Below are positions 241 through 21,909 of a stretch of DNA of 23,742 nucleotides, in pieces. A program made the translations under genes and the position numbers. Origin of the DNA: a virus; IMG/VR virus record IMGVR_UViG_3300032092_000259, positions 1 through 23,742 of that record. One strand, 5' to 3'. How positions within the stretch are numbered: the first letter of the stretch is position 1; each line of letters starts with the position of its first letter. The notes below the pieces were generated by a model. The model saw only the letters and a list, made by a program, of their open reading frames with translations. It made no database searches and had not been told where the DNA came from.

Positions 241-1773
241 ATGACACGTTCCCTTTGCGCCGCGATTTCCGGCACGATCAACGCTGAGGACTTTGCCCGC
301 TTTGAGAGCGTCATGGCGGATCCACAGTGGCGTCACGCGATTGAGAAGAACGCCTCCCTGCTCTACTACATGGGTGATCTCCTTGAGACGCCTCCAGTAG
401 TTGCTGAGCAAGCGGCTAAAGAGGCGCAGGCCTTTGCTGCGCGCCAACGCTACGACGTGATTCAGGTTCGCCCCGAGGCGGGCGGCTACGTCGTAAAGGT
501 GTCCTCGGCCCCTGACAATATGCAGCCGGTCTCCATCTTCCTGACAGAGAAGCAGGCAGCGGAGGTGCTTCCGCCCGAGACGATGCAGGCTGCCGATCAG
601 ATGGGCGCGGCAACGATGACGGGCGTGGAGGCCGACGCAGATCCTCTTGTGGAGGCGGCTGCGCCGGTGCAGACCTTTGGCCTCTACAAGGTCATGGAGA
701 AGGGCTCGGGCAAGCAGATTGTCGGGTATGTCATTCCGCAGCTCATGGACATCATGACCGGGCAGATGGTGCCGCAGGCTCTGTTTGTAAATGGCAGCCA
801 GTACGCCATGCAGCAGACTGTCGTAGGCAGTCCTGTTGGCATCAACTTCAATCTACCGGCCAGCCCTAACATTCGCGGACTTGGTGCTTTCTACAAGTCT
901 GACGGCCGCTCAATTGTCGTCACGACGCCCGTAGAAATCATTTCTGAGGTTACCGTCGAAGGGCGCAAGTATTACGCAACCCGCCTCCAGAATGGGCAGG
1001 AAGTGCAGCTTGCTCGTGTCGACAATCTGAAGAAGCCGGTGCAGATGAGCCCTGGTGAGATCGCAGTCCCGAAGGACTACGACTTCATGGTCCTTGACTC
1101 GCCCGTCCAGCTGGAGGACGGCGGTGCCGCCCAGCAGGGCATAGCGCGGGGCGGGGCCACAGGTCAGCCCCCTGCTCCGATGCAGGTTCCTATGAAGGAG
1201 GTGCAGGCCTCTGCGTACCCGACAATGGTCGAGATTCGTGCATGGGGCGATCTCAGCTGCGACCTCCGTGGGCCGGTGTTCGATAAGATCGGCTCTGGCG
1301 TACAGTCGTGGGCTGACGGCATCTTCCATCTTGCAGCAGCCGGGGTTCCGCAGAACCTTGCGACTGCGCTGCTTGAGAAGTCCGCGTCTGAGTCTCAGCC
1401 AGTCCGCCTCTACGGTCTGCATCCGCTCTCGACTCCCGTTGAGCGCGTAAAGACCGCAGCTGCGATGGCGGCGGTGAAACTTGCAAACGTGAAGCTTCCC
1501 CCCAAGCAGTGTCTCCTCAAGGAGGCCGCTGCCCTTTCGGACGTTGCCTCGGTGGACTCGGTCCTCGCGTTGAACTTCATCAATCCCGAGAACCTTGAGA
1601 CGTTCATCGAGTACATCCCGGAGCTTGAGGAGACTTCAACGAAGCTGGCGAACATCGTCCTAGCATCGCAGATGGGTCTTCAGACAGTTCCGCAGCAAGC
1701 TGCTGTCCGCGCGATGTTCGCTATCGAAAATGTGGTTAGTGCTCTGAAGGATCTCCAGACGCACAAGATTTAA
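241..1773 (+). CDS. Conserved-looking virion-associated protein, 510 aa
   Basis: ATG start at 241 with a GAGG Shine-Dalgarno just upstream, overlapping the previous stop region. I do not recognise an enzyme. The N-terminal ~120 residues are mixed helix; residues ~140-290 look beta-rich with Gly turns (for example GYVIPQLMDIMTG and FVNGSQYAMQQ), as in phage structural proteins; residues ~360-510 are Ala-rich helical. It carries four K-x-A-[S/A] motifs (K36 NAS, K380 SAS, K404 TAA, K427 EAA), a pattern shared with the head proteins to the right, which suggests a virion or assembly role. Its stop codon overlaps the next start (TAATG), so the two are translationally coupled. Structural role is inferred from context; it lacks any portal-like signature I could see. 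Confidence 0.75.
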   Translation: MTRSLCAAISGTINAEDFARFESVMADPQWRHAIEKNASLLYYMGDLLETPPVVAEQAAKEAQAFAARQRYDVIQVRPEAGGYVVKVSSAPDNMQPVSIFLTEKQAAEVLPPETMQAADQMGAATMTGVEADADPLVEAAAPVQTFGLYKVMEKGSGKQIVGYVIPQLMDIMTGQMVPQALFVNGSQYAMQQTVVGSPVGINFNLPASPNIRGLGAFYKSDGRSIVVTTPVEIISEVTVEGRKYYATRLQNGQEVQLARVDNLKKPVQMSPGEIAVPKDYDFMVLDSPVQLEDGGAAQQGIARGGATGQPPAPMQVPMKEVQASAYPTMVEIRAWGDLSCDLRGPVFDKIGSGVQSWADGIFHLAAAGVPQNLATALLEKSASESQPVRLYGLHPLSTPVERVKTAAAMAAVKLANVKLPPKQCLLKEAAALSDVASVDSVLALNFINPENLETFIEYIPELEETSTKLANIVLASQMGLQTVPQQAAVRAMFAIENVVSALKDLQTHKI

Positions 1774-2651
1774 TGGCACGCCACCCCGCAGAATACTTCG
1801 TAGCGTTCCTGTGTGCCTCATTGGAGGACTCGCAGGAACGCACCATCAACAGCACGCTCCGCCTCCACGGCATCGCGCCGATTGAGAGAGCGGAGTTGTC
1901 GCGTATTCGTCAGGACTCCGCGCCGCCCGAGGGCTTTAAGGCTTGGGATCCCAACGATACGCCCAGCAAGCGATGGCTGAAATCAAAGTCCATCTACTCC
2001 TTCATGCACCCCGACGAGACCACGCGGGAAATGAAGACGCAGATCCTAGAGACGCCAGTAGTACGCGAGAAGGTAGACACCCTCCTCATTGGCCGTGTCT
2101 CCCCATCTGAGGCCGCATTCCGTCTTCAGAAGCTGGGGCACACGGTGTCTGCCGGCGCGATTGAGGAGTACCAGCATTACTTCTGGAACACCGAGATTAT
2201 GGGCCTCGCGGACTGGGTGGCGTACTTCCAGAGCGACGCTGACCCGGACGACGGTTCAGGACGAACGCAGGGTCGTAAGTCCCCGCTTAAGTCCTCTCTG
2301 CTTGGCGGTCCTGACCTTGCCAAGTACAAGGCAGGCATCGCGCAGGAACTAGACGGGAAGAAGATCCTCGCTGAACTTCAACAGGAACTGTACTTCACGT
2401 TCCGGGAGATTAAGACGCTCCCGATATCAGAGAAGAAGGTTGTCATGCTGTCTGCGGTTACACGCAGTCTTGCGCGACTCGATGAACGCATTTCCTCCAG
2501 CGACCAGGCACTTCAAGACACGCTCAAGCGGTTTGAGAAGTTCAAGGTCATCACGGACACAGCGAAACCTCCGTCTCTTTTGCAGCTGGCACCGCAGGGA
2601 ACAATCAGTTCTCGGTCTAAAACCGAAATTCAGATTTCGAGAGAGAAGTAA
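1773..2651 (+). CDS. Hypothetical phage protein, 292 aa
   Basis: ATG overlaps the upstream TAA (TAATG at 1771-1775) and the gene ends in another TAATG, so it lies in the middle of a tightly coupled operon. The protein is mostly helical, polar and rich in charged residues, with an N-terminal block (MARHPAEYFVAFL) and a Trp/Tyr-rich middle (EEYQHYFWNTEI, LADWVAYF near residues 130-150) that looks like a conserved core. The C-terminal third is long helix. No K-x-A-[S/A] motif, membrane segment or catalytic motif was seen. The neighbours suggest a virion assembly or tail role, but no specific function can be given. Confidence 0.7.
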   Translation: MARHPAEYFVAFLCASLEDSQERTINSTLRLHGIAPIERAELSRIRQDSAPPEGFKAWDPNDTPSKRWLKSKSIYSFMHPDETTREMKTQILETPVVREKVDTLLIGRVSPSEAAFRLQKLGHTVSAGAIEEYQHYFWNTEIMGLADWVAYFQSDADPDDGSGRTQGRKSPLKSSLLGGPDLAKYKAGIAQELDGKKILAELQQELYFTFREIKTLPISEKKVVMLSAVTRSLARLDERISSSDQALQDTLKRFEKFKVITDTAKPPSLLQLAPQGTISSRSKTEIQISREK

Positions 2652-3861: not shown

Positions 3862-4025
3862 TTTCGCAGGCAGTACTTCGCGCGTTTAGCGAGGAGCTAA
3901 AAAAGGTAGCGGCAATGGCGCCGCTACCTCCTACCAAGCCGACCTTTAACGTCGCGGCTACGCAGGCCCCCAAGGCGTCTACGGCGGCACAGCCTGTGAA
4001 ACTGCCGGCTGTCCCGACAATCTAG
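3858..4025 (+). CDS. 55-aa protein with an N-terminal KKVAA motif
   Basis: The GTG at 3858 overlaps the upstream TGA (GTGA), the same coupling used elsewhere in this operon, so I prefer it to the GTG at 3843. The protein has a short amphipathic helix, AFSEELKKVAAMAP (residues 9-22), then a Pro/Ala/Thr-rich tail without structure. The helix closely resembles AFFSEVEKIAALMP in the 189-aa protein at 13631, so it may be a shared docking or processing tag with little else attached. The DNA of residues ~14-23 also forms a terminator for the opposite strand. The stop shares the tetranucleotide CTAG (4022-4025) with the stop of the leftward RNase HII gene. Confidence 0.6.
   Translation: MISQAVLRAFSEELKKVAAMAPLPPTKPTFNVAATQAPKASTAAQPVKLPAVPTI
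3899..3928 (-). terminator. Intrinsic terminator of the leftward rnhB cassette, inside a rightward gene
   Basis: Read leftward, the sequence is a perfect 9-bp stem, GGTAGCGGC / GCCGCTACC, with a 6-base loop, followed directly by six T residues (complement of A at 3899-3904). This is a textbook rho-independent terminator for transcription coming from 5578 through RNase HII. It is embedded in the coding sequence of the 55-aa rightward gene at 3858, about 95 bp beyond the RNase HII stop. Read rightward there is no T tract, so it should act in one direction. Confidence 0.8.
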
Positions 4026-4618
4026 GCCGCTTTACGTAGCGCGGTATGGGCTGCCTTCTCTCGGTGCAGAGGAGACAGCCCATATTTATTTAGGGCCTCT
4101 ACGTGCTCCTTAGTGCCGTAGCCTCGATTGCTTTCCCACTTGTACGTTGGGAATTGCTTTGCAAGGTCGTCCATCTCTAGGTCACGGTAGACCTTGGCGA
4201 TGATGGATGCGGCGGCGCAGAGGAAGTTATTTGCGTCCATCTTTGGTGCGATACGCTGCGGCCCGGGGTAGCCGTCTACGCCAAAATCCCCGTCAACAAG
4301 TAGCAACTTTGGACGCTGAAATAGGGTGGCTTCACGTACAGCTCGCTTGTAGGAGAGCTGTAGTGCGGCGGTGTGGCCGAGCGAGTTGATTTCCTCTACA
4401 GAGGCCTCGCCGACTCCAACAATTCCGCCTTGGCTGTGAACAAACCGAAGGATGCTTTCAACTGACCGTGCTCGCTGAAGAGCAGTCGTCTTCTTGGAGT
4501 CCTTGACCTCGGGCATAGGCCACGCATCAAGGATCATTTCCATCTGCACGGCGACAGACACAATCGGACCAGCAAGACAGCCGGTACCGACCTCATCGAG
4601 ACCGCAGTAGATGTTCAC
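4022..4618 (-). CDS. rnhB: Ribonuclease HII
   Basis: This 198-aa protein would cut the RNA strand of RNA-DNA hybrids and at single ribonucleotides in DNA. The family motifs are clear: GLDEVGTGCLAGPIVSVAV at residues 6-24, DSKK at 40-43, LLVDGD at 106-111, SIIAKVYRD at 138-146 and the C-terminal GYGTKEH with SPLHR. The four likely metal-binding acids are D8, E9, D109 and D146. The usual GRG of RNase HII reads GTG (residues 11-13), the form normal for RNase HIII, although the length and lack of an N-terminal extension fit HII. GTG start with a strong GGAGG upstream. It is last in a leftward three-gene cassette, overlapping the previous gene by 26 bp. A phage copy probably serves phage replication or primer/ribonucleotide removal. 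Confidence 0.93.
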   Translation of the reverse strand: MNIYCGLDEVGTGCLAGPIVSVAVQMEMILDAWPMPEVKDSKKTTALQRARSVESILRFVHSQGGIVGVGEASVEEINSLGHTAALQLSYKRAVREATLFQRPKLLLVDGDFGVDGYPGPQRIAPKMDANNFLCAAASIIAKVYRDLEMDDLAKQFPTYKWESNRGYGTKEHVEALNKYGLSPLHREKAAHTALRKAA

Positions 4619-7854: not shown

Positions 7855-8565
7855 TTACTTATTTTTTTTTACACCAAGCACCGCATCGAGCGCGTCGACA
7901 ACAGAAATTGTCGGCTCCTGCCTAAGCATCGCGTGAACATCCCCGTGTCCGCGCAGCCCTTCATACGTTACGGCCGCTGCGCGAATTCTGCGACGTCCCT
8001 CCGCCAATGAACGATGAGCTTCCTGTAGGGGCAATGAGGCAGAATATTCCGCAAGTCCTACAACTGACTCACTCATCGCCACGCAAAGGCGGAGCAGGGG
8101 CACCCAGGGTCGTACGTCTCCCGTAGCAGTGGCAATTACTGCAAAGTCGTTCTCATCAATCCGCAGGAAAACATCGACCCACGGTTCGACTTCCCTGAGT
8201 TCCCACTTTGAGAGCCGAAGCTGCCCGCAGCATGCAGTGTGCAGTTCTTTGCCGTACTCAGGAGTAATCGACAGCGGTACGGTGTTGGCATCGAGTAGCT
8301 TCAGTAATGTCTGCACGCTGAACTCTAGACGACGCAGGCGTGCGGTCATCAGGAGAATTTCTTGGCGAGAAACGGGACCCGCCCCATTATTTTCGGTACG
8401 CAGTCTCCGCAGTTCCTCAACCTCACCCGCCGGTATAAACTTTCCTCGTGCGTTACTTATGGACTTCGCGCTAAGAAAGCCTTTCCGGACGTAGGTGCGG
8501 ACAGAGCGCTCGGTGATCCCTAGGTGTTTCGCGGCCTCGGAGTAGGTAAGAAGCTCAGCAGCCAT
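7855..8565 (-). CDS. MerR/excisionase-type helix-turn-helix regulator, 236 aa
   Basis: The ATG at 8565 is preceded by AGGAAG eight bases upstream; the longer frame to 8625 would run into the divergent gene's start and is rejected. Residues 6-56 form a winged helix-turn-helix of the MerR/HTH_17 type: LTYSEAAKHLGITERSVRTY is the HTH and KSISNARGKFIPAGEVEEL fits the wing and following helix. Residues ~60-236 are helical with a possible coiled coil (LMTARLRRLEFSVQTLLKLL) that could dimerise it; no ligand-binding or metal-binding signature is visible. It is transcribed away from the head operon at 8625 and toward the small membrane protein, so it may control either or both. It lacks the K-x-A-[S/A] motif. 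Confidence 0.8.
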   Translation of the reverse strand: MAAELLTYSEAAKHLGITERSVRTYVRKGFLSAKSISNARGKFIPAGEVEELRRLRTENNGAGPVSRQEILLMTARLRRLEFSVQTLLKLLDANTVPLSITPEYGKELHTACCGQLRLSKWELREVEPWVDVFLRIDENDFAVIATATGDVRPWVPLLRLCVAMSESVVGLAEYSASLPLQEAHRSLAEGRRRIRAAAVTYEGLRGHGDVHAMLRQEPTISVVDALDAVLGVKKNK

Positions 8566-8579
8566 TACTCTGTTCTTCC

Positions 8580-8592
8580 TTTCGATTCGAAA
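8580..8592. promoter_or_regulatory. Small palindrome TTTCG-ATT-CGAAA in the divergent regulator/head-operon gap
   Basis: A perfect 5-bp inverted repeat with a 3-bp spacer in the 59-bp gap between the divergent regulator (start 8565) and head operon (start 8625). It partly overlaps the regulator's ribosome-binding region. It could be an autoregulatory site, but it is short enough to arise by chance, and I see no clear promoter hexamers. Confidence 0.25.
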
Positions 8593-8624
8593 TACTGATA
8601 ACCTCTGCTCGGAAGAAACCCACA

Positions 8625-9536
8625 ATGCCCACGCAAATTAGCCCAGATATGCTGATGAGCATCGCCCGCCAGGCGGCGGGCGAGTATCTTGCCCGAGGCA
8701 CCGACTTGACTACTGCTGTTGTCAAAGAGGCCTCGGCTAGTCGGCTACCGCTAACCGACGAGCATGTTAGGCGAATTTGCGAGATGACCTACCACGAGGC
8801 GTTTGAGCGTGCCTTTCATCAGAAGCGTGGTAGCCTAGATCGCTACATTTCGTTTGATCCGCCTGATGCGGTACAGTGCGCAAAGGAGCTGAAGGCTATG
8901 ACGGTTGAGAAGAAGGCATCTGCGCCCACACAGGGCCGCGCCCTCGCGCCGACAGAGTTCCTAAAGGCCGCCAGCGCGATGGCCGGTATCCCTGTCCGCG
9001 AAAAGTACCAGCCCATGAACGCTTACTTGGCAACCGTACTAACTCCAGACGTTGAGAAGGTTGCTGCGCAGGACAACTGGCACAACCCGATGGGCGATAT
9101 TGTTCGCGCCCATCAGGCACTCCGCGAGGCCATACGTAAGGTTGAGCTAGACCTTGAGTCGACAGAGCACGAGGCCAAGATTGCTTCGGCTCACTTAGCG
9201 GCTCAGTCGGTGCAGGCCTGCAAGGACGGCGCAGATGTTTCTGACGTCCTTAATCTTTGCTACCACGCCGCTGAGGGAACTGGCATTACGGTCAAGGTCG
9301 CGCACGACACTGTCTGTGAGATCGCCGAGGTTCTAAAGTCCCACGGCTTCGATACGCGTGTACGCGAGAAGACGGCTTCGTATGCGGAAGCAAACCTCTC
9401 TCATCCGATTGCTGTCGTATTTACTAAGGTCGCATCCCTGCGGGACTCTCAGGCACACCTAGCTACGGCAGCGGAAGACCTCCGCGCTGAGTACTCACTC
9501 TCTGCTCGGAAAGTTCGTGCCGCATTCCCCGGTTAA
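8625..9536 (+). CDS. Probable internal head protein with seven K-x-A-[S/A] motifs, 303 aa
   Basis: ATG at 8625 with GGAAG upstream. The protein is helical, Ala/Lys/Glu-rich and soluble. The N-terminal ~65 residues form a compact block (LARGTDLTTAVVKEASASRL then LTDEHVRRICEMTYHEAF) that looks like a conserved helical domain. K-x-A-[S/A] occurs at K34, K96, K114, K145, K185, K249 and K268, dividing the chain into pieces of about 18-64 residues. That arrangement suggests a precursor processed by the head protease, like T4 internal proteins, or a chain carrying many docking sites. It leads the head cassette and overlaps the next gene by 20 bp. Internal location is inferred, not shown. Confidence 0.75.
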   Translation: MPTQISPDMLMSIARQAAGEYLARGTDLTTAVVKEASASRLPLTDEHVRRICEMTYHEAFERAFHQKRGSLDRYISFDPPDAVQCAKELKAMTVEKKASAPTQGRALAPTEFLKAASAMAGIPVREKYQPMNAYLATVLTPDVEKVAAQDNWHNPMGDIVRAHQALREAIRKVELDLESTEHEAKIASAHLAAQSVQACKDGADVSDVLNLCYHAAEGTGITVKVAHDTVCEIAEVLKSHGFDTRVREKTASYAEANLSHPIAVVFTKVASLRDSQAHLATAAEDLRAEYSLSARKVRAAFPG

Positions 9537-10644
9537 AACTGCCGGCCTTAAGGCTTTGGCAGCTGGTGCGGTCCTAGGGGCTGGCGCAGTCACGGCCGCG
9601 CCACACTTCGCCGCTGGGATGCGCAAGTCCTTCCGCCCCCACCTTGAGGCGGCGGCCGTAAGAAATCAACTTGGTCCACTAGGTACAATGGGAGACCTAG
9701 GGCCAAATCAGTTTAAGTTTGCACATCTGGAGTCACCCATGAGCGCCTCTGTACCAGACGAAGTCTACGTTGCTGCTGCCCATGGGCACCTCTCCGAAAA
9801 TGAGGTTGCTCATTTGGAGTCTTTTGCTGGCGAGCTGACCAAGGGCGCGTCTTTCGCTCAAGGCCTTCAGTACGGGCTCGGAACTGCGGCAGCTAGCGCA
9901 GTTGGTGGTCTTGCTATGGTAGGCCTCTCCCATGGTATCCAGAGCGCATACGACTCCATGACATTTGAGAAGGACCTTCAGGCGACTCTGAAGACCCGTC
10001 CCGAGCTAAGCACGTACCCCAAAGAACAGGTGCGTCTTGTCTACCAGTCGCTGCGCCGCCTGAGCCCTGAGATCGCTAAGGATCCTCTGACCGCAGGTAC
10101 TTACCTGGTACGTCAGTTTGAGCGCCGTAACCCCAGCGACCCTCACTCTCTCCCGACGGTTGAGCTTGAGAGCGCGCGTACTCTTTCGCAGATCACGGGT
10201 GAGTTTGGAAAGCGTCGCGACAATGTGCGCGACGCGCTGCTACAGGCGAACGCGCAGGGCGTACAGGCCGGTGTAGGGTATATGCAAGAGTCTCGGCAGG
10301 CTAAGCGCCAGTCCGAGATGGAAGATCGCAAGATCAAGGCGTCCCTGCACCTTGAGGGGGAGAAGGCGCGCCTTCGCGACCAGTACAACATTGCTGGTGA
10401 GCAGCGTAAGGACCTAAAGGATAACACTGCGCAGAACCTTAGGGACCAACTGAGCGCAATGAACGCAGCCCACGGGACACGGACGGGCGAGCTTGAGCAG
10501 CAGCTTGCAGAGATGCGCAACCGCATGACAGCCGCAGAGGCCGCGCGGGACACCGCGCTCTCCTCCCTGACGCGTTCACAACGTGTTGGGCTTCAGCGCC
10601 AGCGAGATCTAATGATGCGCCGAGAAGCCCAAGGCAAGAAGTAA
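9517..10644 (+). CDS. Membrane-segment and coiled-coil protein, probable internal/ejected virion protein, 375 aa
   Basis: GTG start at 9517, inside the end of the previous gene, with a weak GGA upstream. Two Gly/Ala-rich hydrophobic segments lie at residues ~11-34 (LKALAAGAVLGAGAVTAAPH) and ~115-142 (GLGTAAASAVGGLAMVGLSHG). A compact helical block follows at ~150-205 (SPEIAKDPLTAGTYLVRQF), then a long polar coiled coil at ~260-345. One motif, K109 GAS, precedes the second hydrophobic segment. Membrane-active segments joined to a coiled coil suit a protein stored in the virion and released with the DNA, or a scaffold component. It is not portal-like in sequence. Function unproven. Confidence 0.7.
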   Translation: MPHSPVKTAGLKALAAGAVLGAGAVTAAPHFAAGMRKSFRPHLEAAAVRNQLGPLGTMGDLGPNQFKFAHLESPMSASVPDEVYVAAAHGHLSENEVAHLESFAGELTKGASFAQGLQYGLGTAAASAVGGLAMVGLSHGIQSAYDSMTFEKDLQATLKTRPELSTYPKEQVRLVYQSLRRLSPEIAKDPLTAGTYLVRQFERRNPSDPHSLPTVELESARTLSQITGEFGKRRDNVRDALLQANAQGVQAGVGYMQESRQAKRQSEMEDRKIKASLHLEGEKARLRDQYNIAGEQRKDLKDNTAQNLRDQLSAMNAAHGTRTGELEQQLAEMRNRMTAAEAARDTALSSLTRSQRVGLQRQRDLMMRREAQGKK

Positions 10645-10654: not shown

Positions 10655-12514
10655 TTGGAAAAGGTCTCCCTATTTCGTGGTACCAACGGAGAAGGACGCC
10701 CGCTCATCCATCGTGTTGAGCCGGGGTCTGCTTACGGTATTTCTCAGACAGGAGACCTATCCAAGACTGCCTCACACGAGCACCTGCCACAGGTGCAGGA
10801 GCTGATTGAGTCACTCGCCCCACAGCCTGGGCGGCTGTACCTAATCAACTCCGCAATTGGGGCCGGCGAGTACGTAGGGTTTAATCTACGAGGCGACTGG
10901 TTTACCGAGCGCGGGCTACTGCATACGCCGCCGGGCTGGGACAAGATCCCTGTCTGGGATATCGATGCGCGCCGCCGGGCCGCAAACATGACAGAGTCGG
11001 TGCCGGGCTGGGGTGATCAAGCGTGGGGATACCCTACCTTTTACAATGCACACCGTTTTCGGCACCACGTCAACAAAGACCCAGAGAAGGCGTACGGATT
11101 TATTCAAGGGGCTTTCTACGACCACCGTATGCACCGCGTTGTGCTGGTGTCAGAGCTTGTACGGGACATGTGTGAGAGCCTAAATGCTCTCGATATTTAC
11201 GAGCGGATTGAGCGTGGTGAGTTCCCGGACTCGTCAATGGGCGCAAAAGTGCCCTATGACGAGTGTGCCATCTGCGGGACTAAGGCCCGCAATCCGGCCG
11301 AATACTGCAGGCACGTGAATAATCAGGATCCCTTGTTCGGCATGAACAAGATCCTCGCAGACGGTCGGAAGTGCGGTGTCTACAATCACCATCCTCGTTT
11401 CTTTGATGATTCTTTTGTATTTGTTGGGGCCGAGAGATCCGCCAAGGTCATGTCCTTAGTAAATGACCGGGTCAAGGGCACCAATAAGTACTCACAGAAA
11501 ATCTACCCATTCCAGACTCCCGGCGCAAAGCTCGCATCTGTTGAGCTTACTCCCCGACAGGAAGAGAACCGAACCATGCGAGACGTGGTGCGGAAGATGG
11601 AAGAGCGAAAGCAGGGAGAGCGCGTAGAGGACAGGCTTACGCAGGCCCTTGAAGGCATCCCGCAGGGCAATCGAATTGAGCGGGCTGCTGCTGTTGCTTT
11701 TGCACGGCAGGCAAAGAAGAAGGATGCTCCTGACGCACTGAAAGCTGTTGAGGAGAACTTCCAAGCTACCTACGGGCAGCCCTTAGACCACTTCTCGTAC
11801 CTACGAGAGAAGGTTGAGGGCGCTTCTGGGTTTGGCTCTGAAACAAAGATGGCTTCCTTGAGCAAGTGGGCGGAGATGTTGAAGAACATCCCTGCGCCCT
11901 CCCCCAGCCAACTCTCTATTGTGAAAAGCCACGCATCTAGGATGCCCGGACTGCCTACTCCCCTACTTCAGGACTTGGCAGCTACACCGGATGAGAGCCT
12001 GCGCGGACTTGCCCACCTCGGAATTGTGCTACGCCCTGACGAGTTTCAGTACATGGCGCTCGCCCGCGGCAATCGGGATGCAGCAGATGGCTACCGCTCT
12101 GGTGGAATTGTCTTCAAGTCTGCGCCGCTGGATATGGAGTGTATGCCGGAGTTCAATCCTGAGCCTCGTCCCAATGCCATGACGATGGACATACTACGTC
12201 AAGTGCTTGGTAGTCTCTTAGGACAGCGGTCATTTGCACCAGCAGCGGTCCGCATTCGCATTACACGCGTAATGCCTGTACAAGATCGGTCCGACTTTGA
12301 GCATACAGATCCAGTGCTCGATAAAATTTCCCAAGCCTACAACGACTACCGGGGCGGATTAATCTTCTCTCGTCCCGCGCTGCACCATTTACAACTACCG
12401 GAAACTGCGGATATCTTCGATCTCGGACAAGAGGTCAAGCTGGCCGATGCTTCCGCAGAGCTTTCAAGACTTCTTTTCCACCTAGCGTACTGGCATACTC
12501 TGCCAGTCGGTTAG
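10655..12514 (+). CDS. Putative prohead maturation protease with a CCCH zinc site and long C-terminal extension, 619 aa
   Basis: TTG start at 10655, six bases after AAGGAG. Residues ~130-200 match the pattern of herpesvirus/HK97-type head proteases: a His cluster (NAHRFRHHVNKDP, H133/H137/H138), a GFIQGAFYD strand, a VVLVSEL strand and PDSSMGAKVP, where S193 or S194 would be the nucleophile. Directly after it, C204-x2-C207, C218 and H220 make a likely zinc knuckle, and PRFFDDSFVFVGAE (248-260) ends the core. Residues ~300-619 are extra and of unknown role, perhaps a scaffold-like or docking part. K-x-A-S occurs at K37, K292 and K398, which could be self-processing sites flanking the ~250-residue core. 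Position just before the scaffold-like gene fits. Fold assignment is from motif reading only. Confidence 0.6.
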   Translation: MEKVSLFRGTNGEGRPLIHRVEPGSAYGISQTGDLSKTASHEHLPQVQELIESLAPQPGRLYLINSAIGAGEYVGFNLRGDWFTERGLLHTPPGWDKIPVWDIDARRRAANMTESVPGWGDQAWGYPTFYNAHRFRHHVNKDPEKAYGFIQGAFYDHRMHRVVLVSELVRDMCESLNALDIYERIERGEFPDSSMGAKVPYDECAICGTKARNPAEYCRHVNNQDPLFGMNKILADGRKCGVYNHHPRFFDDSFVFVGAERSAKVMSLVNDRVKGTNKYSQKIYPFQTPGAKLASVELTPRQEENRTMRDVVRKMEERKQGERVEDRLTQALEGIPQGNRIERAAAVAFARQAKKKDAPDALKAVEENFQATYGQPLDHFSYLREKVEGASGFGSETKMASLSKWAEMLKNIPAPSPSQLSIVKSHASRMPGLPTPLLQDLAATPDESLRGLAHLGIVLRPDEFQYMALARGNRDAADGYRSGGIVFKSAPLDMECMPEFNPEPRPNAMTMDILRQVLGSLLGQRSFAPAAVRIRITRVMPVQDRSDFEHTDPVLDKISQAYNDYRGGLIFSRPALHHLQLPETADIFDLGQEVKLADASAELSRLLFHLAYWHTLPVG

Positions 12515-12578: not shown

Positions 12579-13622
12579 ATGTCAATTTTCGATACACTGG
12601 TTGAGTCGGGCGTTACCCAGGAAGACCTGGAGAAGGCCGCATCCGCACGTCTTTTTGCCGAGGCCGCAGCGGCCGAGGGCATCGACCTCTCTGAGCTGAC
12701 CGAGGACCAGGCCGAGGAGCTGTACGACTTCTGGGCCAACGGCGGTGAGGAGTACGCCAAGGAGGCGTCTGCTGAGGAGATGCTCGCCGAGGCCGCCGTC
12801 AAGGAGGCTTCCGCTAAGCTCGCCGAGGCCGAGTACATCGGCCGCTACATGGCGCGCGTATACGCCGACGAGATGAACAAGATTGCGGCGGACGAGGAGA
12901 CCCCGGGCCGGCTCCGCTCTATGGGCCACGGCATTCGTGAAGACGCCGAGCATCTCGGTCGCAAGCTCCGTTCGGGCGTCGGCTACGACGACCTAAAGTC
13001 CGGCATCTCGGCTCTCCGCAAGGGCGGCAAGGACATGTCGAAGGCCGAGATGGCAGCCGCGTACAGGCAGGTTGGTAAGGGCGGTCTCCGCGCGGGCCTA
13101 GCGGCGGGTGCGGTTGGTGCGGCGGGCTACGGCGCGAAGAAGCTCCACGATGCCCACAAGAAGCAGTCTTCCGCTCTCGATGAGATCGTCGAGGCACGCG
13201 CACTTGAGCTTCTTCAGGCCGCTACCTATGAGAAGGTTGCGCAGCGTACGGCGACCGAAGCCGCCAAGGATCTTCTCACCGCCCGGCACGTCCGCAAGAA
13301 CGTCAGTGACGTGGCGGGGGAAGGTGCAGGCGCCATGGACAAGCTCAAGGCCTACGCGAAGATCCTCCGCGGTAAGGCGGGTAACGAGGCGATGACCTCC
13401 GAGGCTCGTAAGTCCCTTGCGGCACAGGCCGGTCTGGCGGCGGGCGTAGGCGCGGCGGGCTACGGCGCTAAGAAGCTGCATGACGCCCACAAGAAGGAGT
13501 CGTCGGCGTTTGAGGAGCTGGCCCTCGTTCGCGCGTACGAGCTGCTTGAGGAGGCCGAGGCCGAGAACGAGCTGGACGAGGCGGCTCTCGACCTCCTCCG
13601 CGCGAACGGCTACGACGTCTGA
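12579..13622 (+). CDS. Acidic, Ala-rich scaffold-like protein with duplicated glycine-zipper segment, 347 aa
   Basis: ATG at 12579 with AGGAG ten bases upstream and strongly GC-ending codons, as in the capsid genes, which suggests high expression. Residues 1-110 are acidic helix rich in Ala and Glu with motifs K19 AAS, K61 EAS, K75 EAS and K101 IAA. A Gly-rich hydrophobic segment followed by KKLHDAHKK occurs twice, at residues 172-212 and 284-323, each followed by a short amphipathic helix ending ELL. The C-terminus is acidic helix. Acidic Ala/Glu helices directly after the protease gene are typical of prohead scaffolds that are digested during maturation, but the two hydrophobic segments are unusual for a plain scaffold. 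The role is inferred. Confidence 0.65.
   Translation: MSIFDTLVESGVTQEDLEKAASARLFAEAAAAEGIDLSELTEDQAEELYDFWANGGEEYAKEASAEEMLAEAAVKEASAKLAEAEYIGRYMARVYADEMNKIAADEETPGRLRSMGHGIREDAEHLGRKLRSGVGYDDLKSGISALRKGGKDMSKAEMAAAYRQVGKGGLRAGLAAGAVGAAGYGAKKLHDAHKKQSSALDEIVEARALELLQAATYEKVAQRTATEAAKDLLTARHVRKNVSDVAGEGAGAMDKLKAYAKILRGKAGNEAMTSEARKSLAAQAGLAAGVGAAGYGAKKLHDAHKKESSAFEELALVRAYELLEEAEAENELDEAALDLLRANGYDV
13092..13547 (+). repeat. Internal duplication of ~120 bp within the scaffold-like gene
   Basis: Copy 1 at 13092-13214 and copy 2 at 13428-13547 encode nearly the same ~40 residues (AGLAAG...GAAGYGAKKLHDAHKK followed by an SSA...ELL helix). Copy 2 is one codon shorter. The DNA is also close in the core coding for GAAGYGAKKLHDAHKK, so the duplication is fairly recent or maintained by gene conversion. 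Confidence 0.85.
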
Positions 13623-13630: not shown

Positions 13631-14200
13631 GTGCCTGCTTGGATCCACAATCGCGCTGAGCGTATCCTTCGGAAAAACCCGAACATGGATGAGGGCGAAG
13701 CTTTTGCGATTGCGACCCAGCAGGCACACGCCTTAGGTAAGTCACCTAAAGGGTACGGTACTTCGGAGGGCCGCGCAGAAGCCCACCGTAAGTACCGTAC
13801 CCCGCAGGATGATCAGAAGACCGCTTCTGCATTTATGTGGGATGCGTTCTTTTCAGAGGTCGAGAAAATTGCTGCCCTTATGCCAAAGGGCGGGCTTTCT
13901 GCCCTCGCAAAAACCAAGCCCATATCTTTTAAGGCACCTAGCGAAGCGAGTGTCTTTGCTAAAATGACGCGAACCGCCCCTCTTAATTCTACCGGAATTA
14001 AGGGCGCGCCGAATCCCACTCACCGTGTTGCACAAGGTGGCGTGCCCGCCACTACCGCGGTGCCCACGGGAGTGAAGTCCCCATTTGGGGCAGCCGCAGG
14101 TGCTCCGACAGGGGTGGCGCCTCCGAGTGCCACAACATCTACTGTATCTACTGTAAAGCCGAACAACCCCTCTTCTTCGGGCGGCGGCTTTACTCCATAA
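13631..14200 (+). CDS. Protein with N-terminal W-I-H/AIATQQAH domain, KTAS/EKIAA tag and Pro/Thr-rich tail, 189 aa
   Basis: GTG start at 13631, seven bases after GAGG. Three parts can be seen. Residues 1-57 form a small basic domain (AWIHNRAERIL, GEAFAIATQQAHALGKSP, then a KGYGTSEGRAEAHRKY loop), a type I have seen on other phage proteins but whose function I do not know. Residues 62-84 carry K63 TAS and the amphipathic AFFSEVEKIAALMP (K79 IAA), which matches the tag in the 55-aa protein at 3858. Residues ~100-189 are low-complexity Pro/Ala/Thr/Ser, ending GGGFTP. The basic domain could bind nucleic acid or another virion part, with the tag joining it to the head. This is inference. Confidence 0.7.
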   Translation: MPAWIHNRAERILRKNPNMDEGEAFAIATQQAHALGKSPKGYGTSEGRAEAHRKYRTPQDDQKTASAFMWDAFFSEVEKIAALMPKGGLSALAKTKPISFKAPSEASVFAKMTRTAPLNSTGIKGAPNPTHRVAQGGVPATTAVPTGVKSPFGAAAGAPTGVAPPSATTSTVSTVKPNNPSSSGGGFTP

Positions 14201-14236: not shown

Positions 14237-15592
14237 ATGTCCTACCAAAGCCTAATCGATGACGCCATCGCCCGTGCCCGCGTAAAGGTTGCGTCGGGCC
14301 TCCCCCAGCCAACTGACAAGCTTGCCTCCGCCCACGATGGCGGTGCGCTACTTGGCGAAGCGGAGAAGATTGCCAACGCGCTTGAGTACATGGCGATGGC
14401 AACTGCGGATGACGGCTCTGCCGCCGGCGCAGCACGGGCGGAGATGGTGCGCGATTTCTTCAAGACTGCCGCTGAGGCAGACAAGAAGAAGGGAATTGCA
14501 CAGCCCCTGGTCACCGAGACGACGACCTCTGGTACTCAGAAGGTCGCCCCGCAGGCCGGCAAGGCGAAGCTGGCCCCGCAGGGCTTGGTCTCTGGTGACT
14601 CCCCTAAGCAGACGACTGCCCCGGATGGCATGATGTCTCGCAACGCAATGGAGCAGACGCCTTCTGCCTCCCCCACTAAGGCCGCCAGCCTCTACGACAT
14701 GCTTATGGGCGCGCGTATGGCGAAGATTGCAGCCGAGTCCGGTGCGGCAGCTCCGCGTCAGATGGACTCCACGCAGCCTCCGCCTGCTCACCCGAAGGGG
14801 CAGGAGGGCGGCCACGCACAGGGCCCGCTCTCTACCAGCGAGAGCATCGTGGCTGCCAAGCGTCGCGAGCTTCACGCACCGACACGTAATCGTCTGAGCG
14901 AGCTTTTTGCACACAGCGGGGACACTGCGCAGAGCCTAGAGTCCGCCGCAGGTACGTTCCCTCTTGCTGCGGCAAAGGGTGGAATGAAGGTTGCGAGCCT
15001 CGCAGCTGCGATGCAGAAGGAGGCCACTGACGCGGCCCCTGGCGCCTTCAAGACTCCTATTTCAGAGCTTGGCCAGAAGAACATGGACTCTGCTACTGGC
15101 TACGTCCAGCGCGGTGCGGGACACGTTGGTGACTTTTTTAAGACGAAAGGCGGCCGTAACGTAGCCCTCGGCGCGCTTGGTGTTGGTGGTGTGGCCGCCG
15201 GCACGCTGTACGCACGCAAGAAGCTCGAGGATATGGGCCAGGGTGGCCGCGAGCGTCGTATGATGGAGATCCAAAAGGAAAGCTCCGTCTCTATCGTTGA
15301 GCTTGCAGCCTTGATGCAGAAGGAGGCCACTGACTCGCCTCCAGGCGCGTTCAAGACCCCAATTGAGTCAGAGCTAGCAAGGGCGAATATTGACTCTGCG
15401 ACGGGGTATGCTCAGCGTGGTGCCGGACATATGGGTGACTTCCTGAAGACCAAGGGTGGCCGTAACGTAGCACTTGGGGCCCTTGGTGTCGGTGGTGTGG
15501 CCGCAGGCACTCTGTACGCCCGTAAGAAGCTTAAGGACATGCAGCAGGGCGGGCGTGAGCGCCGCATGCGCGAGCTTTCACAGGGCTACTAA
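14237..15592 (+). CDS. Multi-motif protein with tandem glycine-zipper repeats, 451 aa
   Basis: ATG at 14237 after GAGG. The N-terminal half (1-250) is a string of short Ala-rich helices joined by Pro/Thr/Gln linkers, with K-x-A-[S/A] at K17, K28, K76, K148, K163 and K251 and a related EKIAN at K44. The C-terminal part is two tandem ~101-residue units (M259 and M360 begin the matching MQKEATD blocks). Each unit has GAFKTPI, DSATGY-QRGAGH, a hydrophobic ALGALGVGGVAAGTLYARKK segment and GGRERRM. The hydrophobic segments are long enough to cross a membrane and are followed by positive charge. It could be a processed precursor that yields membrane-active peptides for DNA entry. Function unproven. 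Confidence 0.7.
   Translation: MSYQSLIDDAIARARVKVASGLPQPTDKLASAHDGGALLGEAEKIANALEYMAMATADDGSAAGAARAEMVRDFFKTAAEADKKKGIAQPLVTETTTSGTQKVAPQAGKAKLAPQGLVSGDSPKQTTAPDGMMSRNAMEQTPSASPTKAASLYDMLMGARMAKIAAESGAAAPRQMDSTQPPPAHPKGQEGGHAQGPLSTSESIVAAKRRELHAPTRNRLSELFAHSGDTAQSLESAAGTFPLAAAKGGMKVASLAAAMQKEATDAAPGAFKTPISELGQKNMDSATGYVQRGAGHVGDFFKTKGGRNVALGALGVGGVAAGTLYARKKLEDMGQGGRERRMMEIQKESSVSIVELAALMQKEATDSPPGAFKTPIESELARANIDSATGYAQRGAGHMGDFLKTKGGRNVALGALGVGGVAAGTLYARKKLKDMQQGGRERRMRELSQGY
14999..15568 (+). repeat. Tandem intragenic duplication with a period of about 303 bp
   Basis: Two consecutive units start with the same ATGCAGAAGGAGGCCACTGA at 15011 and 15314. The proteins they encode agree at most positions, and unit 2 has one extra residue (PIESEL against PISEL). 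Third-codon positions differ at many sites, so the duplication is not brand new and protein-level selection seems to keep it. Confidence 0.9.
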
Positions 15593-15593: not shown

Positions 15594-16016
15594 ATGCGTA
15601 ATCTCCGCGACTACCTAAATCTCTCAATCGCCGCCTCACGCGGCGATTTGGGAGAGCACGTTAAGGCTGCATCAGCTGGAGTGTATGAGGGTATGCGTGG
15701 AGAGTACGCGCCCCTTCATCTGCCAAAGGAAGACAAGCCGGGGCTGCTTAGTCGACGTTCTGCCCAGATTGCGCTGCTCGGCGGTGCGGGTTCTGCGCTA
15801 CACGGGGGCTACGGCCTTGTAGGTCCCGCTGCTGCGGGCCTAAGTGCAGAGCACGGGCTTGGTATGGGGACTGCCATAGGCGGTTTAATGGGTGCCTTAG
15901 CGGGAAGTCCGCACGGTGTCCTTGGTCGCGCGGCAGGCGGCGCAATCGGCTCCGCACTTGGTCACGAGTTTTTCCGCCGCAAGGCTGAAAAGCGGAGGCT
16001 CCATGGCTCTTCGTGA
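15594..16016 (+). CDS. Glycine-zipper hydrophobic protein with K24 AAS motif, 140 aa
   Basis: The start is the ATG one base after the previous gene's TAA; the frame is open further upstream, but that part overlaps the repeat gene and has unlikely composition. Residues 1-30 are a helix ending EHVKAASAG. Residues ~56-125 are an almost continuous Gly/Ala-rich hydrophobic region (GGYGLVGPAAAGLSAEHGLG, GTAIGGLMGALAGSPHG, GRAAGGAIGSALGH), with a basic end, FFRRKAEKRR. This looks like several short membrane-inserting hairpins with glycine zippers. If cleaved at K24, the hydrophobic part would be released. Role probably virion-internal or membrane-related; inferred. Confidence 0.65.
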   Translation: MRNLRDYLNLSIAASRGDLGEHVKAASAGVYEGMRGEYAPLHLPKEDKPGLLSRRSAQIALLGGAGSALHGGYGLVGPAAAGLSAEHGLGMGTAIGGLMGALAGSPHGVLGRAAGGAIGSALGHEFFRRKAEKRRLHGSS

Positions 16017-16275
16017 CTCGCTTGCGCTGTTTAGCAAAGCTGCTTCCGGGCAGCTCGGCGAAAATGCATATTACGCATTAGTTGGAATTGCCCAGGCTAA
16101 GGTTGCGGCGGTAAAACAGCCAATGACAACCGAACAACTAAACGCGAATAGTGCACCGCAGCATCAAAGTGATAGTTCTCGTAGACAGCGTCTTGCAGAA
16201 CTACTGCGTCGGCGCGAAACTACTGAAACGGCAACCGGCTCTCTTTCACCGAATCCGCCTCACGGAGATTCCTAA
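16003..16275 (+). CDS. Small protein with two K-x-A-[S/A] motifs, 90 aa
   Basis: The ATG at 16003 follows GGAGG by four bases and overlaps the previous gene by 14 bp; the longer frame from 15916 would lie in the previous gene and is rejected. Residues 1-40 are two short helices with LALFSKAASGQ (K12) and GIAQAKVAAVKQP (K33). The rest is polar and probably disordered, with an Arg-rich helix (RRQRLAELLRRRETTE). No membrane segment. It resembles a minimal carrier of the shared motif, like the 55-aa gene at 3858. Function unknown. Confidence 0.6.
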   Translation: MALRDSLALFSKAASGQLGENAYYALVGIAQAKVAAVKQPMTTEQLNANSAPQHQSDSSRRQRLAELLRRRETTETATGSLSPNPPHGDS

Positions 16276-16649
16276 TGTCCACTACCGTTAAGATTGGGTC
16301 TGCTCAGGCCGCAATCGTCTCTGCCCGGGGCGCGCAGATGCTGCGCTCTCTGTCAGAGAAGGTTGCATCACTGTCAGACGAAAACGCTCAGCTTCGCTCC
16401 CTTCTTACCCAGCGTCAGCACGAGGATTCCGTCCGTGAGATCGCTCACGAGATGGAGGCCAAGGGCCTAAACGCTGAGATGTCCTTCGAGGAGAAGGTTG
16501 CGCACGTTTCGCAGTATGATGATCTGTCACTCATCCGTCAGGCCGTTGGCATGGCTGCTGGGACAGGCATTCGTTTTGCGAAGGTAGCCGATGCCCCTGG
16601 CCGCGGCACAGCTGACGCTCTCACCGAACTCTGCCTCGGCGCAGATTAA
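16275..16649 (+). CDS. Coiled-coil protein, 124 aa
   Basis: ATG in a TAATG overlap with the previous stop. Residues ~10-70 form a likely coiled coil (QMLRSLSEKVASLSDENAQL with LRSLLTQRQ following), with K29 VAS inside it. A second helix holds SFEEKVAHVSQY and the end has IRFAKVADAPG, both related to the shared motif. It is acidic and soluble. It is the last gene before the decoration and capsid genes. A scaffold accessory or internal protein would fit, but no family can be named. Confidence 0.65.
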   Translation: MSTTVKIGSAQAAIVSARGAQMLRSLSEKVASLSDENAQLRSLLTQRQHEDSVREIAHEMEAKGLNAEMSFEEKVAHVSQYDDLSLIRQAVGMAAGTGIRFAKVADAPGRGTADALTELCLGAD

Positions 16650-17253: not shown

Positions 17254-18411
17254 ATGGAAACCTATTCTGCTGAGCTGATCAACGCCGGCTTCATCGAGCG
17301 GCTTGACACACGCGAGGGCCAGTCCAAGACGGCCGCCGCCAGCCTGACCTACATCAAGGACCGTCTCCGTGAGGCTTCCTTCACGGACATGATCATCCCG
17401 AACGAGCGCGTTGTTCGTGGCGATCTCCAGCGCTCCACCGAGCACGACACGCTCGTGAAGATCGTGGACATTGAGCCGGGCTCCAAGGCCATGCCGCTCA
17501 ACTTCCGCGGTCTCCCCACGGCGACCTACGTGAACGGCAAGCGTTACGCGATCGGCTTCTTCACCATCTCGTCTGAGAAGTTCGAGATCGTTGAGCAGGA
17601 GCTGATGGCGTACGAGATGCCCATCACCCGCATCATTGAGGAGAACTCCCTCAAGGATATGGTTGAGGTCAAGGATCGTGAGTTCCTCATCCACGTTGAG
17701 GCGTGCATTGAGGGTATGCAGTCCGAGGGCAACAGCGGCGCCGTTGCGTTCAACACCTCTGGTGTCAACGCGGGCTCGGTGTACGGCGTCTCGAAGGTCA
17801 AGGGCAGCCTCGCGCTCGCCGCGACGACCGACGACTTCGTTGTTCGTCCGATCCAGCGCCCGGACATCGTCAACATCAAGAAGCTCCTCAAGCGTCAGGT
17901 TGTTGACACCTCCGGGAACATCCTCCGCGCCGGCCGTCTGCGCCCCGCTGTCATGCTCATCACCGAGTCTGACGCGGACGACTTCGACCAGTGGACGCTT
18001 GAGGACCTCGGTTCTCAGCTCACCGGCGAGACTGCGGTTGAGGGCTGGAGCTACAACAAGGCTGTCGGCCTCCGCATCATCAAGACGATCAAGAACGACA
18101 TCCTCCGCGAGGGGAACGTTTACGTGTTCACGGCGCCCGAGTTCTTCGGCCGCAACTACACGCTGAACGATGTGAAGTTCTACATCGACAAGATCGTGAA
18201 CCGCATCCAGTGGCAGGCGTGGATGGACGTCGGCATGGGCATCGGGAACATCGCCGCTGTCGTGAAGCTTGAGCTGTACTCCGGCTCGGTCATCACGGGT
18301 GCGACGGACTCCGGCTTTGAGGCTGCCCAGCCCGTCGCGGTTGAGAACCTCGGCCAGAAGAACAACAAGGTCGCGGAGGGTCTCACCTTCCCGCAGATCT
18401 CCGTGTTCTAA
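17254..18411 (+). CDS. Major capsid protein (probable)
   Basis: 385 aa, ATG with GAGG upstream, and the most strongly biased codon use in the window, nearly all GAC/AAC/AAG/ATC-type codons. It is followed by a strong terminator. The N-terminal ~28 residues end at QSKTAAAS (K25), which could be a propeptide with a processing site. After it come a helix (YIKDRLREASFTDMIIP), mixed beta/alpha sequence with a long central helix region and beta-rich ends, compatible with the HK97 fold. Sequence such as QWQAWMDVGMGIGNIAAVV near the C-terminus is typical of phage capsid proteins. Position after protease, scaffold and decoration genes supports the call. A major tail protein would be the alternative, but that should lie after the sheath. 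Confidence 0.8.
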   Translation: METYSAELINAGFIERLDTREGQSKTAAASLTYIKDRLREASFTDMIIPNERVVRGDLQRSTEHDTLVKIVDIEPGSKAMPLNFRGLPTATYVNGKRYAIGFFTISSEKFEIVEQELMAYEMPITRIIEENSLKDMVEVKDREFLIHVEACIEGMQSEGNSGAVAFNTSGVNAGSVYGVSKVKGSLALAATTDDFVVRPIQRPDIVNIKKLLKRQVVDTSGNILRAGRLRPAVMLITESDADDFDQWTLEDLGSQLTGETAVEGWSYNKAVGLRIIKTIKNDILREGNVYVFTAPEFFGRNYTLNDVKFYIDKIVNRIQWQAWMDVGMGIGNIAAVVKLELYSGSVITGATDSGFEAAQPVAVENLGQKNNKVAEGLTFPQISVF

Positions 18412-18470: not shown

Positions 18471-18485
18471 GTAACAGGAGGAACT

Positions 18486-19546: not shown

Positions 19547-19547
19547 T

Positions 19548-20054
19548 TTGGCCCTATTTCTCTACGCCAGTGAGACAAACATCCCGTCTGCGTCCAAACG
19601 TCTCAATGAGATGGTTGCCGTTGTTCGGATGTTCCTCCGAGACTTTCCGGAGTTAAACCGTCTCATCTCCGGCGAAGAGACTAGCGACCGAATGATCGCC
19701 TGGGCGATCATTGACGCAATTGACGACTGGAACTCAACTCCACCGTTTATTGGCAAAGTAGGGCTCACAAACTTCCCGTCAATGTCTTGGTTGCGCGAAG
19801 CGGCAGTCATGCGCACGCTAGAGAGTGTGGGTCTACTGCAAACGCGCAACCAGCTTAATTTCTCGGACGGCGGTATTTCTCAGTCGGTCTCCGACAAGGC
19901 ACCGCTATTGCTGAACTGGGTACAGCTCTACTCAAACCGAGTAGAGCAACGGAAGGCCCAGATCAAGTCGTCCATGAATATCGAACTCGCCATGGATGGT
20001 GGAGGCGCACTCAGCGAATACTTCCTCGTCAACGGCACCTATCTTTCCTGGTGA
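19548..20054 (+). CDS. Putative head-tail adaptor (connector) protein, 168 aa
   Basis: TTG start at 19548, directly after the previous stop, with GAGGTG upstream. The protein is mostly helical with a Trp-rich core: MVAVVRMFLRDFPELNRLIS, AWAIIDAIDDWNSTPPFIG and LLNWVQLYSNRVEQRKAQ. The pattern of a short helical bundle, a STPP loop, a Leu-rich helix (AAVMRTLESVGLLQTRN) and a C-terminal SEYF strand resembles phage adaptor or head-completion proteins that bind under the portal. Position in the neck gene block agrees. Family membership needs a profile search; no motif here is enzymatic. Confidence 0.55.
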   Translation: MALFLYASETNIPSASKRLNEMVAVVRMFLRDFPELNRLISGEETSDRMIAWAIIDAIDDWNSTPPFIGKVGLTNFPSMSWLREAAVMRTLESVGLLQTRNQLNFSDGGISQSVSDKAPLLLNWVQLYSNRVEQRKAQIKSSMNIELAMDGGGALSEYFLVNGTYLSW

Positions 20055-20057
20055 TCC

Positions 20058-20690: not shown

Positions 20691-21565
20691 TTTCTTTTCG
20701 CCAAGTCAAGGTCGTATCTTTCTCTCTTCAGTACCTAGACGTGTACTGGGAGATTGAGAATACGAACGAAGACCTCCAAGAGTACGACTTCTACGTTGAA
20801 CGCTCAGAGTCGGAGCTTGGGGCGTGGACGCTTGTTGCGGGTCCGCTCGTAGACCGATTCTACGTTCGGGATAACGACGTTCCCTTGATGAACGCGAACC
20901 GAGAACTCTTCTATCGAGTTCGCGCGATAAATCGTATCAGCGGCGATGAGCTACCTTCCAAGGTATTTTCTCGTAACGGGCCGCTGCCCTTAGATGCCCT
21001 CGAAATTGTACGTAATGAGGAGATCGTGCTCCGCGAGCACGCAGGCACAAAGGCCTGGCTCTTCCCCATTCGCACCTTCGGACAGAGATGCCCGCAGTGC
21101 TGGGATCGTGCTTTGATGAAGTGCACAGATGACGCGTGTCCCACATGCTGGGGAACTGGCTTCTCGAACGGTTACCACTACCCTATCGAGTGCTGGGTAC
21201 AGCTAGACTCGGCAACAAAGGTCGAGCAGGTCACTCAGAATGTTCAGCTGCAAAGTAACTACGTAACTATGCGGCTTGGCCCAGTACCCAACGTCGCCCC
21301 GATGGACCTGGTAATTGACCATCTGAACCGTCGCTGGCGCGTAGTATCCGTTGCGAATACCACGCGGTTTGGTATTTCTGTGCGTCAGCAGCCAAGCTTA
21401 GTGCGCGTGACAAAGGGCAGCGTCGAGGACGCAATTCCGCTAAAGGTGGATACGGCTAACGTGCAGCTGCGGCCTTCTCGCGAGTACATCAACCCGCAAG
21501 TTCCGGGTGCCGCCTCAAGTATCCCCGACATTTCTACGCTACTCGGCGCATATGGAGTGCGGTAA
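20687..21565 (+). CDS. Putative neck protein with Fn3-like start and cysteine zinc site, 292 aa
   Basis: GTG start in a GTGA overlap. Residues 1-85 are beta-rich with the strand order and Tyr/Trp pattern of a fibronectin-III or Ig-like domain (LDVYWEIENTNEDLQEYDFY, FYRVRAINR). Residues 135-154 hold C135-x2-C138, C146 and C151-x2-C154 followed by WGTGFSNGYHYPI, a likely zinc-binding loop. The rest is beta-rich (VTMRLGPVPNVAPMDLVIDH then RRWRVVSVANTT). This combination and the place between adaptor and tail-completion genes suggest a head-closure or neck protein. It has no K-x-A-[S/A] motif. Fold calls are by eye. Confidence 0.6.
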   Translation: MISFRQVKVVSFSLQYLDVYWEIENTNEDLQEYDFYVERSESELGAWTLVAGPLVDRFYVRDNDVPLMNANRELFYRVRAINRISGDELPSKVFSRNGPLPLDALEIVRNEEIVLREHAGTKAWLFPIRTFGQRCPQCWDRALMKCTDDACPTCWGTGFSNGYHYPIECWVQLDSATKVEQVTQNVQLQSNYVTMRLGPVPNVAPMDLVIDHLNRRWRVVSVANTTRFGISVRQQPSLVRVTKGSVEDAIPLKVDTANVQLRPSREYINPQVPGAASSIPDISTLLGAYGVR

Positions 21566-21909
21566 TGGAAGAAACGAAACAGTCCAAGATCCCACTCAAG
21601 CCCATCCTACTCAGCCTAGGTGCAGTAGGTGCGGGCCATCTGCTTGGCTACGGCTCTGCTGGGGCAATTACTAAAGCACTGGCAAATACGCGCATTGGTG
21701 CGAAACTCCAAAGCATGACGCCGCAAGCCCGTAAGGCCTTCTTGGCTAAGGCACTGGCTGGGGCAACTGGCGCCCTAGCCGTGGCGAGTCTCCTACGCGA
21801 GAACGCGCGCGACAAGTACATTGAGCGCGGATCGTCGAAGACGGCTTCGATTTCTCAGCTTGATATGGTTCACTACGCGTACCAGACAGCTCTGGAGGAG
21901 CGCCGTTGA
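21565..21909 (+). CDS. Small glycine-zipper protein with C-terminal KTAS tag, 114 aa
   Basis: ATG in a TAATG overlap, and its stop overlaps the next start (TTGA). Residues ~12-38 (ILLSLGAVGAGHLLGYGSAG) and ~60-77 (LAKALAGATGALAVASLL) are hydrophobic and Gly/Ala-rich, probably a membrane-inserting hairpin. The C-terminus holds SSKTASISQL (K92), followed by an amphipathic helix (DMVHYAYQTALEERR). It has the same parts as other proteins of the head cassette but lies in the neck block. Function unknown. Confidence 0.65.
   Translation: MEETKQSKIPLKPILLSLGAVGAGHLLGYGSAGAITKALANTRIGAKLQSMTPQARKAFLAKALAGATGALAVASLLRENARDKYIERGSSKTASISQLDMVHYAYQTALEERR

Follow-up and report, generated by a model that had tools for sequence, protein, structure and literature searches.

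Why does one short motif, K-x-A-[S/A], recur throughout the proteins encoded in the virus record IMGVR_UViG_3300032092_000259? A sequence-only reading of this 23,742-base stretch, hereafter the window, had found the motif about 35 times in 14 proteins and took it for a shared head-protease cleavage site, with a docking helix for capsid loading as the alternative; it had also proposed counting the motif against shuffled proteins and in homologous phage genomes. In this study, the plausible genes of the window were translated, the motif was counted, and each protein was shuffled on its own (2000 shuffles) as the null model. As set out below, K-x-A↓[S, A, less often N/E/G/H/D/Q], where the arrow marks the predicted scissile bond, is very likely the sequence at which this phage's head-maturation protease, the product of open reading frame (ORF) 10655, recognizes its substrates. 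ORFs are named by their start positions, and features lie on the plus strand unless stated otherwise.

The motif occurs 38 times in the window proteins against an expectation of 10.2 ± 3.0, and the highest total among the 2000 shuffles was 21. No other exact 3-residue spaced pattern is as enriched as K-x-A-S (24 versus 3.5 expected, Poisson P 6e-13); in each of 10 shuffled control sets, the best such pattern went no further than about 1e-4 to 1e-5. Our recount reproduces the earlier figures exactly in 13 of the 14 proteins and raises that of ORF 241 from 4 to 5. All 14 listed proteins carry the motif, but two further sites had been overlooked, K-F-A-A in ORF 18486 and, on the leftward ORF 7449, K-P-A-A. 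No motif is present in terminase, RNase HII, the regulator at 7855, ORF 16684, or the last ORF at 22725, in agreement with the earlier reading. The K-P-A-A of ORF 7449 is probably not functional, because Pro at its second position does not occur in the family profile described below. With 10.2 sites expected by chance, about 10 of the 38 (roughly a quarter) are probably fortuitous. The per-protein excess is strong for ORFs 8625, 241, 14237, 10655, and 16003; the remaining site-bearing proteins have site position or conservation as support, or neither, and ORFs 20058 and 21565 are weak.

To define the specificity, a set of 120 head proteins from relatives was profiled, in which related sequences are counted repeatedly. 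Numbering the residues as protease subsites, Lys is P3, Ala is P1, and the residue after the arrow is P1'. At P3, given x-A-S, Lys was observed 235 times against 20 expected, and no other residue was clearly enriched. At P1, given K-x-?-S, Ala was clearly enriched and Met, Gly, Gln, and Ser were slightly in excess, and Glu was not enriched (10 versus 12.3 expected). P1' favors Ser (observed/expected 235/20), Ala (115/40), Glu (74/24), and Gly (52/25), more rarely Asn (37/10), Asp (33/15), and His (18/5.5), and is depleted in Leu, Ile, Lys, and Arg. P2 is free apart from Pro, which is never seen, and Gly and Asp, which are rare, while P5 prefers Leu, Val, Phe, and Met. With duplicate sites removed, K-x-A-S stands at 6.6 times expectation in the relatives' head proteins, and R-x-A-S, K-A-S, K-x-x-A-S, and K-x-V-S show no enrichment (0.7–0.8 times). 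In orthologue alignments, moreover, the K and A columns are kept and P4 and P2 drift. The proteins are rich in Ala, so the signal might be suspected to stem from the composition or codon use of helical proteins with much Ala, Lys, and Ser; however, the per-protein shuffles, the near-variant motifs at or below expectation, and the conservation of only two columns contradict such an origin, which we rejected as next to impossible. Furthermore, the exact spacing and the failure of Arg to replace Lys are like a protease subsite pattern and unlike a helix or charge pattern, as the latter would tolerate Arg and small shifts.

The comparison was extended to 34 related loci in viral contigs, found with the capsid protein of ORF 17254 as the query, and all 34 show a motif excess; both of the proposed counts favor a real signal. 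Genes were called and motifs binned by 10 kb in four contigs of 142–196 kb, taken whole (G001, G002, G004, and G006), and in the first 171.6 of the 180.8 kb of Salmonella phage Arash. In all five, most of the excess falls within the head module; the 140–150 kb bin of Arash holds 23 motifs against 4.8 expected, and the other bins are near expectation. In Vibrio phage D69, K-x-A-S once more ranks highest among the motifs of the head genes (18 versus 1.7), and the top motif of Arash is L-x-K-x-A (21 versus 1.8). Additional motif-dense genes lie at 53–57 and 70–71 kb of G001 and at 136–138 and 155–157 kb of G002. Among them, G001 70240–71367 has 8 motifs, G002 136152–138386 has 11, and G002 155292–156629 has 5. 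The first and last of these lie outside the window-homologous part, and the motif predicts them as candidate head or ejected proteins.

One site lies in the major capsid protein (MCP), a 385-residue protein at 17254–18411 identified by phrog_2522, the structure of phage G gp27, and a match to the Arash MCP. The major head protein family phrog_2522 was matched in 16 of 20 MCP members (best 4.6e-13), and the MCP profile aligned with the gp27 structure 6wkk at an E-value of 1.2e-4, which establishes homology to a solved phage capsid protein. The site KTA↓A at residue 25 (17326–17337) has K25 and A27 invariant in 20 MCPs of 37–94% identity, and it is kept in both cultured relatives, where Arash has VKEA↓G and D69 has TKEA↓G. 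The mature MCP chain is predicted to start at A28. Neither the AlphaFold2 model of the MCP, with a predicted local distance difference test score (pLDDT) of 47.7, nor a fold search with it yielded usable information.

The putative enzyme is the 619-residue product of ORF 10655 (10655–12514), a head maturation protease fused to a helical C-terminal region and identified by phrog_18299 and hhalign. The family phrog_18299, annotated as head maturation protease, was matched in 18 of 21 orthologues (best E-value 1.4e-9), which places ORF 10655 in a head-protease family, and its profile aligned with gp19 of Bacillus phage G at 1.6e-19 in hhalign. In the orthologue alignment, H137 is invariant, and H138 and S194 are near-invariant, including the SMG context; His137/His138 and Ser194, within D-S-S-M-G, are candidate catalytic residues. 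Three sites lie around this region. The first, KTA↓S at residue 37 (10763–10774), precedes the catalytic region, with its K and A columns conserved at 0.94 and TKQA↓A in Arash. The second, KLA↓S at residue 292 (11528–11539), falls in a predicted disordered linker after the protease domain (pLDDT < 50 at 257–328); many relatives retain it even though their linkers cannot be aligned, it coincides with the KIAS of phage G gp19 in alignment, and no site occurs at this place in three loci (L004, L006, and L030). The third, KMA↓S at residue 398 (11846–11857), falls in a second linker (pLDDT < 50 at 390–403; K/A 0.65/0.53). Two of the three sites (292 and 398) are hence in predicted disorder, the boundaries of which were taken from an AlphaFold2 model with a pLDDT of 61.5 and a predicted TM-score of 0.37. 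The arrangement of sites flanking the catalytic region would suit self-release at both ends. In addition, an in-frame TAG breaks the protease match in two contigs (loci L021 and L030, in G003 and G005), which may mean that some phages of this group translate TAG as an amino acid. In another locus (L035, 5195–6928, and the open frame upstream), the protease apparently carries an intein, with a 903-residue frame whose '...VHN/CKVPYD' junction lies at the putative active-site motif SMG; one member gave a weak match to a Pfam intein family.

Sites are also concentrated at N-termini. A site within the first 40 residues is found in 13 of 29 window proteins, whereas shuffles give 1.6 and random placement of the existing sites would give 5.8, and in relatives, 79 of 106 site-bearing proteins have an early site against 36.7 expected. 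The leaders before the first site are mostly 8–38 residues long. Leader-end sites assigned by this pattern are KAA↓S at residue 24 of ORF 15594 (15663–15674), KAA↓S at residue 12 of ORF 16003 (16036–16047; poorly conserved), and a putative KVA↓A at residue 16 of ORF 3858 (3903–3914), which has no relatives in the set; KVA↓S at residue 29 of ORF 16275 (16359–16370) has K and A conserved at 0.85 in 14 sequences. As reported for T4, capsid-targeting sequences of 10–19 residues and propeptides of 7–65 residues are removed by cleavage (PMC9026906), and the leader lengths observed here resemble both. A refinement that is compatible with the protease-site reading is that the leaders are capsid-targeting and are removed at K-x-A↓S, while internal sites serve only to shred the core. 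We regard this refinement as rather probable: the 13 leaders and the like removal of the targeting sequences of T4 internal proteins (PMC9026906) speak for it, whereas by eye the leaders share no obvious common sequence.

The multi-site proteins would be the substrates of such shredding. The head protein of ORF 8625 (8625–9536) has 7 motifs against 0.66 expected; at sites 34, 114, and 268, K and A are conserved at 0.92–1.0 and P2 at 0.22 on average, and the protein is a candidate core protein that the protease would shred. Immediately downstream of the protease gene, ORF 12579 (12579–13622) has 4 motifs in its N-terminal third against 1.44 expected, with K/A conservation of 1.0/1.0 at site 19 and 0.85/0.92 at site 61 in a family whose mean column identity is 0.25. 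It is a candidate scaffold because its position follows the T4-like gene order 21-22-23. The head protein of ORF 14237 (14237–15592), with two tandem units of about 100 residues, has 6 motifs against 1.38, and its sites 28, 76, and 251 are conserved. Both 12579–13622 and 14237–15592 contain internal duplications of about 100 residues, in every one of which a Gly/Ala-rich stretch precedes a KK cluster and K-[EQ]-S-S, the last being possibly a variant site; a Kyte-Doolittle scan at a cut-off of 1.5 did not flag the Gly/Ala-rich segments as membrane spans. ORF 9517 has a single site, KGA↓S at residue 109 (9841–9852), where an alignment of 15 sequences with a mean column identity of 0.20 gives K 1.00, A 0.93, P2 0.00, and P4 0.00. 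The protein of ORF 241 (241–1773) has 5 motifs against 0.56, and its relatives are likewise dense (7 versus 0.48 in the G001 gene 53872–55374 and 11 versus 0.84 in the G002 gene 136152–138386). ORF 13631 has the candidate sites KTA↓S and KIA↓A at residues 63 and 79 (13817–13876), assigned by motif count and with few relatives.

Could each K-x-A-S instead be a docking or capsid-loading element that binds a pocket of the shell or core and stays uncut? The restriction of the motif mainly to the head module, its N-terminal concentration, as in T4 capsid-targeting sequences, and the often hydrophobic P5 would all fit docking. However, the spacing is exact, Arg does not substitute for Lys, P1' is restricted, K and A are kept while neighboring positions drift, protease sites 292 and 398 are in predicted disorder, one site stands on either side of the protease catalytic region, and some proteins carry 7 or more copies; docking is therefore an unlikely explanation. 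The docking helix of the sequence-only reading is accordingly disfavored for K-x-A itself, on the grounds of Arg, spacing, disorder, and P1', and survives in the form that the leaders may target the capsid. A genuine site cut by another phage or host protease is very unlikely: the ORF 10655 gene lies inside the motif-rich module and itself has conserved sites, motif-bearing relatives also carry the protease, and the distant homologue phage G gp19 has the motif in itself. The reading of K-x-A↓S as the site of ORF 10655 rests on the excess, the specificity profile, the head-module bias, the invariance in the MCP, the sites flanking the protease, and the leader pattern, and the shared cleavage site first proposed is thereby supported.

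Several points weigh against this interpretation. Cleavage itself, its position between A and S, and the role of ORF 10655 as the enzyme are what we infer from sequence. Sites 145 of ORF 8625, 17, 148, and 163 of ORF 14237, and 14 of ORF 20058 are not conserved and may be due to chance or be lineage-specific, and for some site-bearing proteins the place in the head is putative. The protease model has no Foldseek match at E ≤ 0.001 and was assigned to no known protease fold by that search. Finally, the proteome table of Arash lists near-complete coverages for the motif-rich proteins Gp223 (100%) and Gp220 (95.8%), which at face value means intact motifs. That column is not credible, as DNA ligase is given 100% from two unique peptides. 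The virions were digested with trypsin and searched without mention of semi-specific peptides (PMC10585845), and standard tryptic searches would miss the cleavage, since the Lys of the motif is itself a trypsin site. With a coverage that is not credible and no semi-specific search described, the Arash proteome neither supports nor refutes cleavage. Unique peptides per length appear lower for the motif-dense Gp220 and Gp225 than for Gp218 and Gp226; as abundance differs, this was given no weight.

How does this system compare with known head proteolysis? The prohead protease gp21 of T4 cuts at (L/I)-x-E↓ (PMC9026906), gp245 of Salmonella phage SPN3US at A-x-E, where P1' is preferably Ser (PMC10052503), and the motif of phiKZ gp175 is given as S-x-E; the proteases of T4, phiKZ, 201phi2-1, and SPN3US all cleave after Glu (PMC5694885). 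As a positive control, the known (L/I)-x-E sites were recovered in six T4 head proteins (46 versus 22.6), most clearly in the scaffold gp22 (16 versus 5.9), and the same six proteins show no excess of K-x-A-[S/A] (2 versus 2.3). The layout of T4 head proteolysis is found here: a free P2 between fixed P3 and P1 residues, N-terminal leaders, enrichment in core proteins with several sites in the candidate scaffold, sites within the protease itself, and the gene order protease, next gene (the scaffold in T4), capsid protein. In contrast to T4, P1 is Ala rather than Glu and P3 is Lys rather than Leu/Ile. Similarly, the P3-x-P1 layout is that of SPN3US gp245 and phiKZ gp175, and the Ser-preferring P1' is that of SPN3US. 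In SPN3US and phiKZ, long propeptides contain several sites and the protease cleaves itself (PMC10052503, PMC5694885), and here, too, there are several sites per protein and sites in the protease. Unlike in these phages, P1 is Ala instead of Glu, P3 is Lys, and the leaders are mostly short compared with 100–250 residues. Homology to T4 gp21 (hhalign E-value 0.34) and SPN3US gp245 (0.12) was not detected, both being single-sequence targets and thus weak tests. Closer to the window, the putative head protease gp19 of phage G is a homologue of ORF 10655 in which KTAA, KVAS, and KIAS lie close to the two ends; phage G differs in that gp27 has no K-x-A near its N-terminus and the head module has no overall excess. 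Arash and Vibrio phages D69, D148, and D181 have a homologous protease and capsid protein (25–35% protein identity). Arash and D69 share the motif enrichment in head genes, and in Arash K-x-A↓A/G is more common, frequently preceded by Leu at P5. Searches of the open-access literature turned up no account of a phage protease site of the K-x-A type. Judged by its sequence features, this appears to be a known kind of system, T4-like head proteolysis, with a new specificity.

Under the protease-site reading, ORF 10655 would cleave after Ala once the prohead has assembled. Cleavage would free the catalytic region from both flanks and cut the short leaders (about 8–38 residues) off the MCP and other head proteins, while the multi-site core proteins 8625, 12579, and 14237 would be reduced to peptides able to exit the head before DNA packaging. 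It is likely that a widespread, essentially uncharacterized clade of large phages, which includes Arash and D69 and contigs of up to about 195 kb, shares the K-x-A↓S specificity and that the motif reads out the proteins entering the head. If so, the sequence of an uncultured phage would be enough to predict its internal and ejected proteome. An enzyme with P1 Ala and P3 Lys would widen the Glu-cutting picture of the T4, phiKZ, and SPN3US proteases, and it would supply a very short, specific protease site as well as a sequence-only marker for head-targeted proteins in phages that cannot be cultured. The cultured relative Arash allows direct testing.

Other features of the locus are reported for completeness. 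An RNase HII gene (PF01351, E-value 1.6e-26; 4022–4618, minus strand) lies on the opposite strand inside the packaging and head region. A helix-turn-helix protein (7855–8625, minus strand) is encoded between the terminase and the head genes; it matches terminase small subunits weakly (phrog_57, E-value 5e-5) and also matches regulators and excisionases. In Arash (OQ632216), multi-subunit RNA polymerase beta/beta' and a helicase (gp206, gp216, and gp217) are among the most abundant virion proteins, which suggests a virion RNA polymerase in this phage group.

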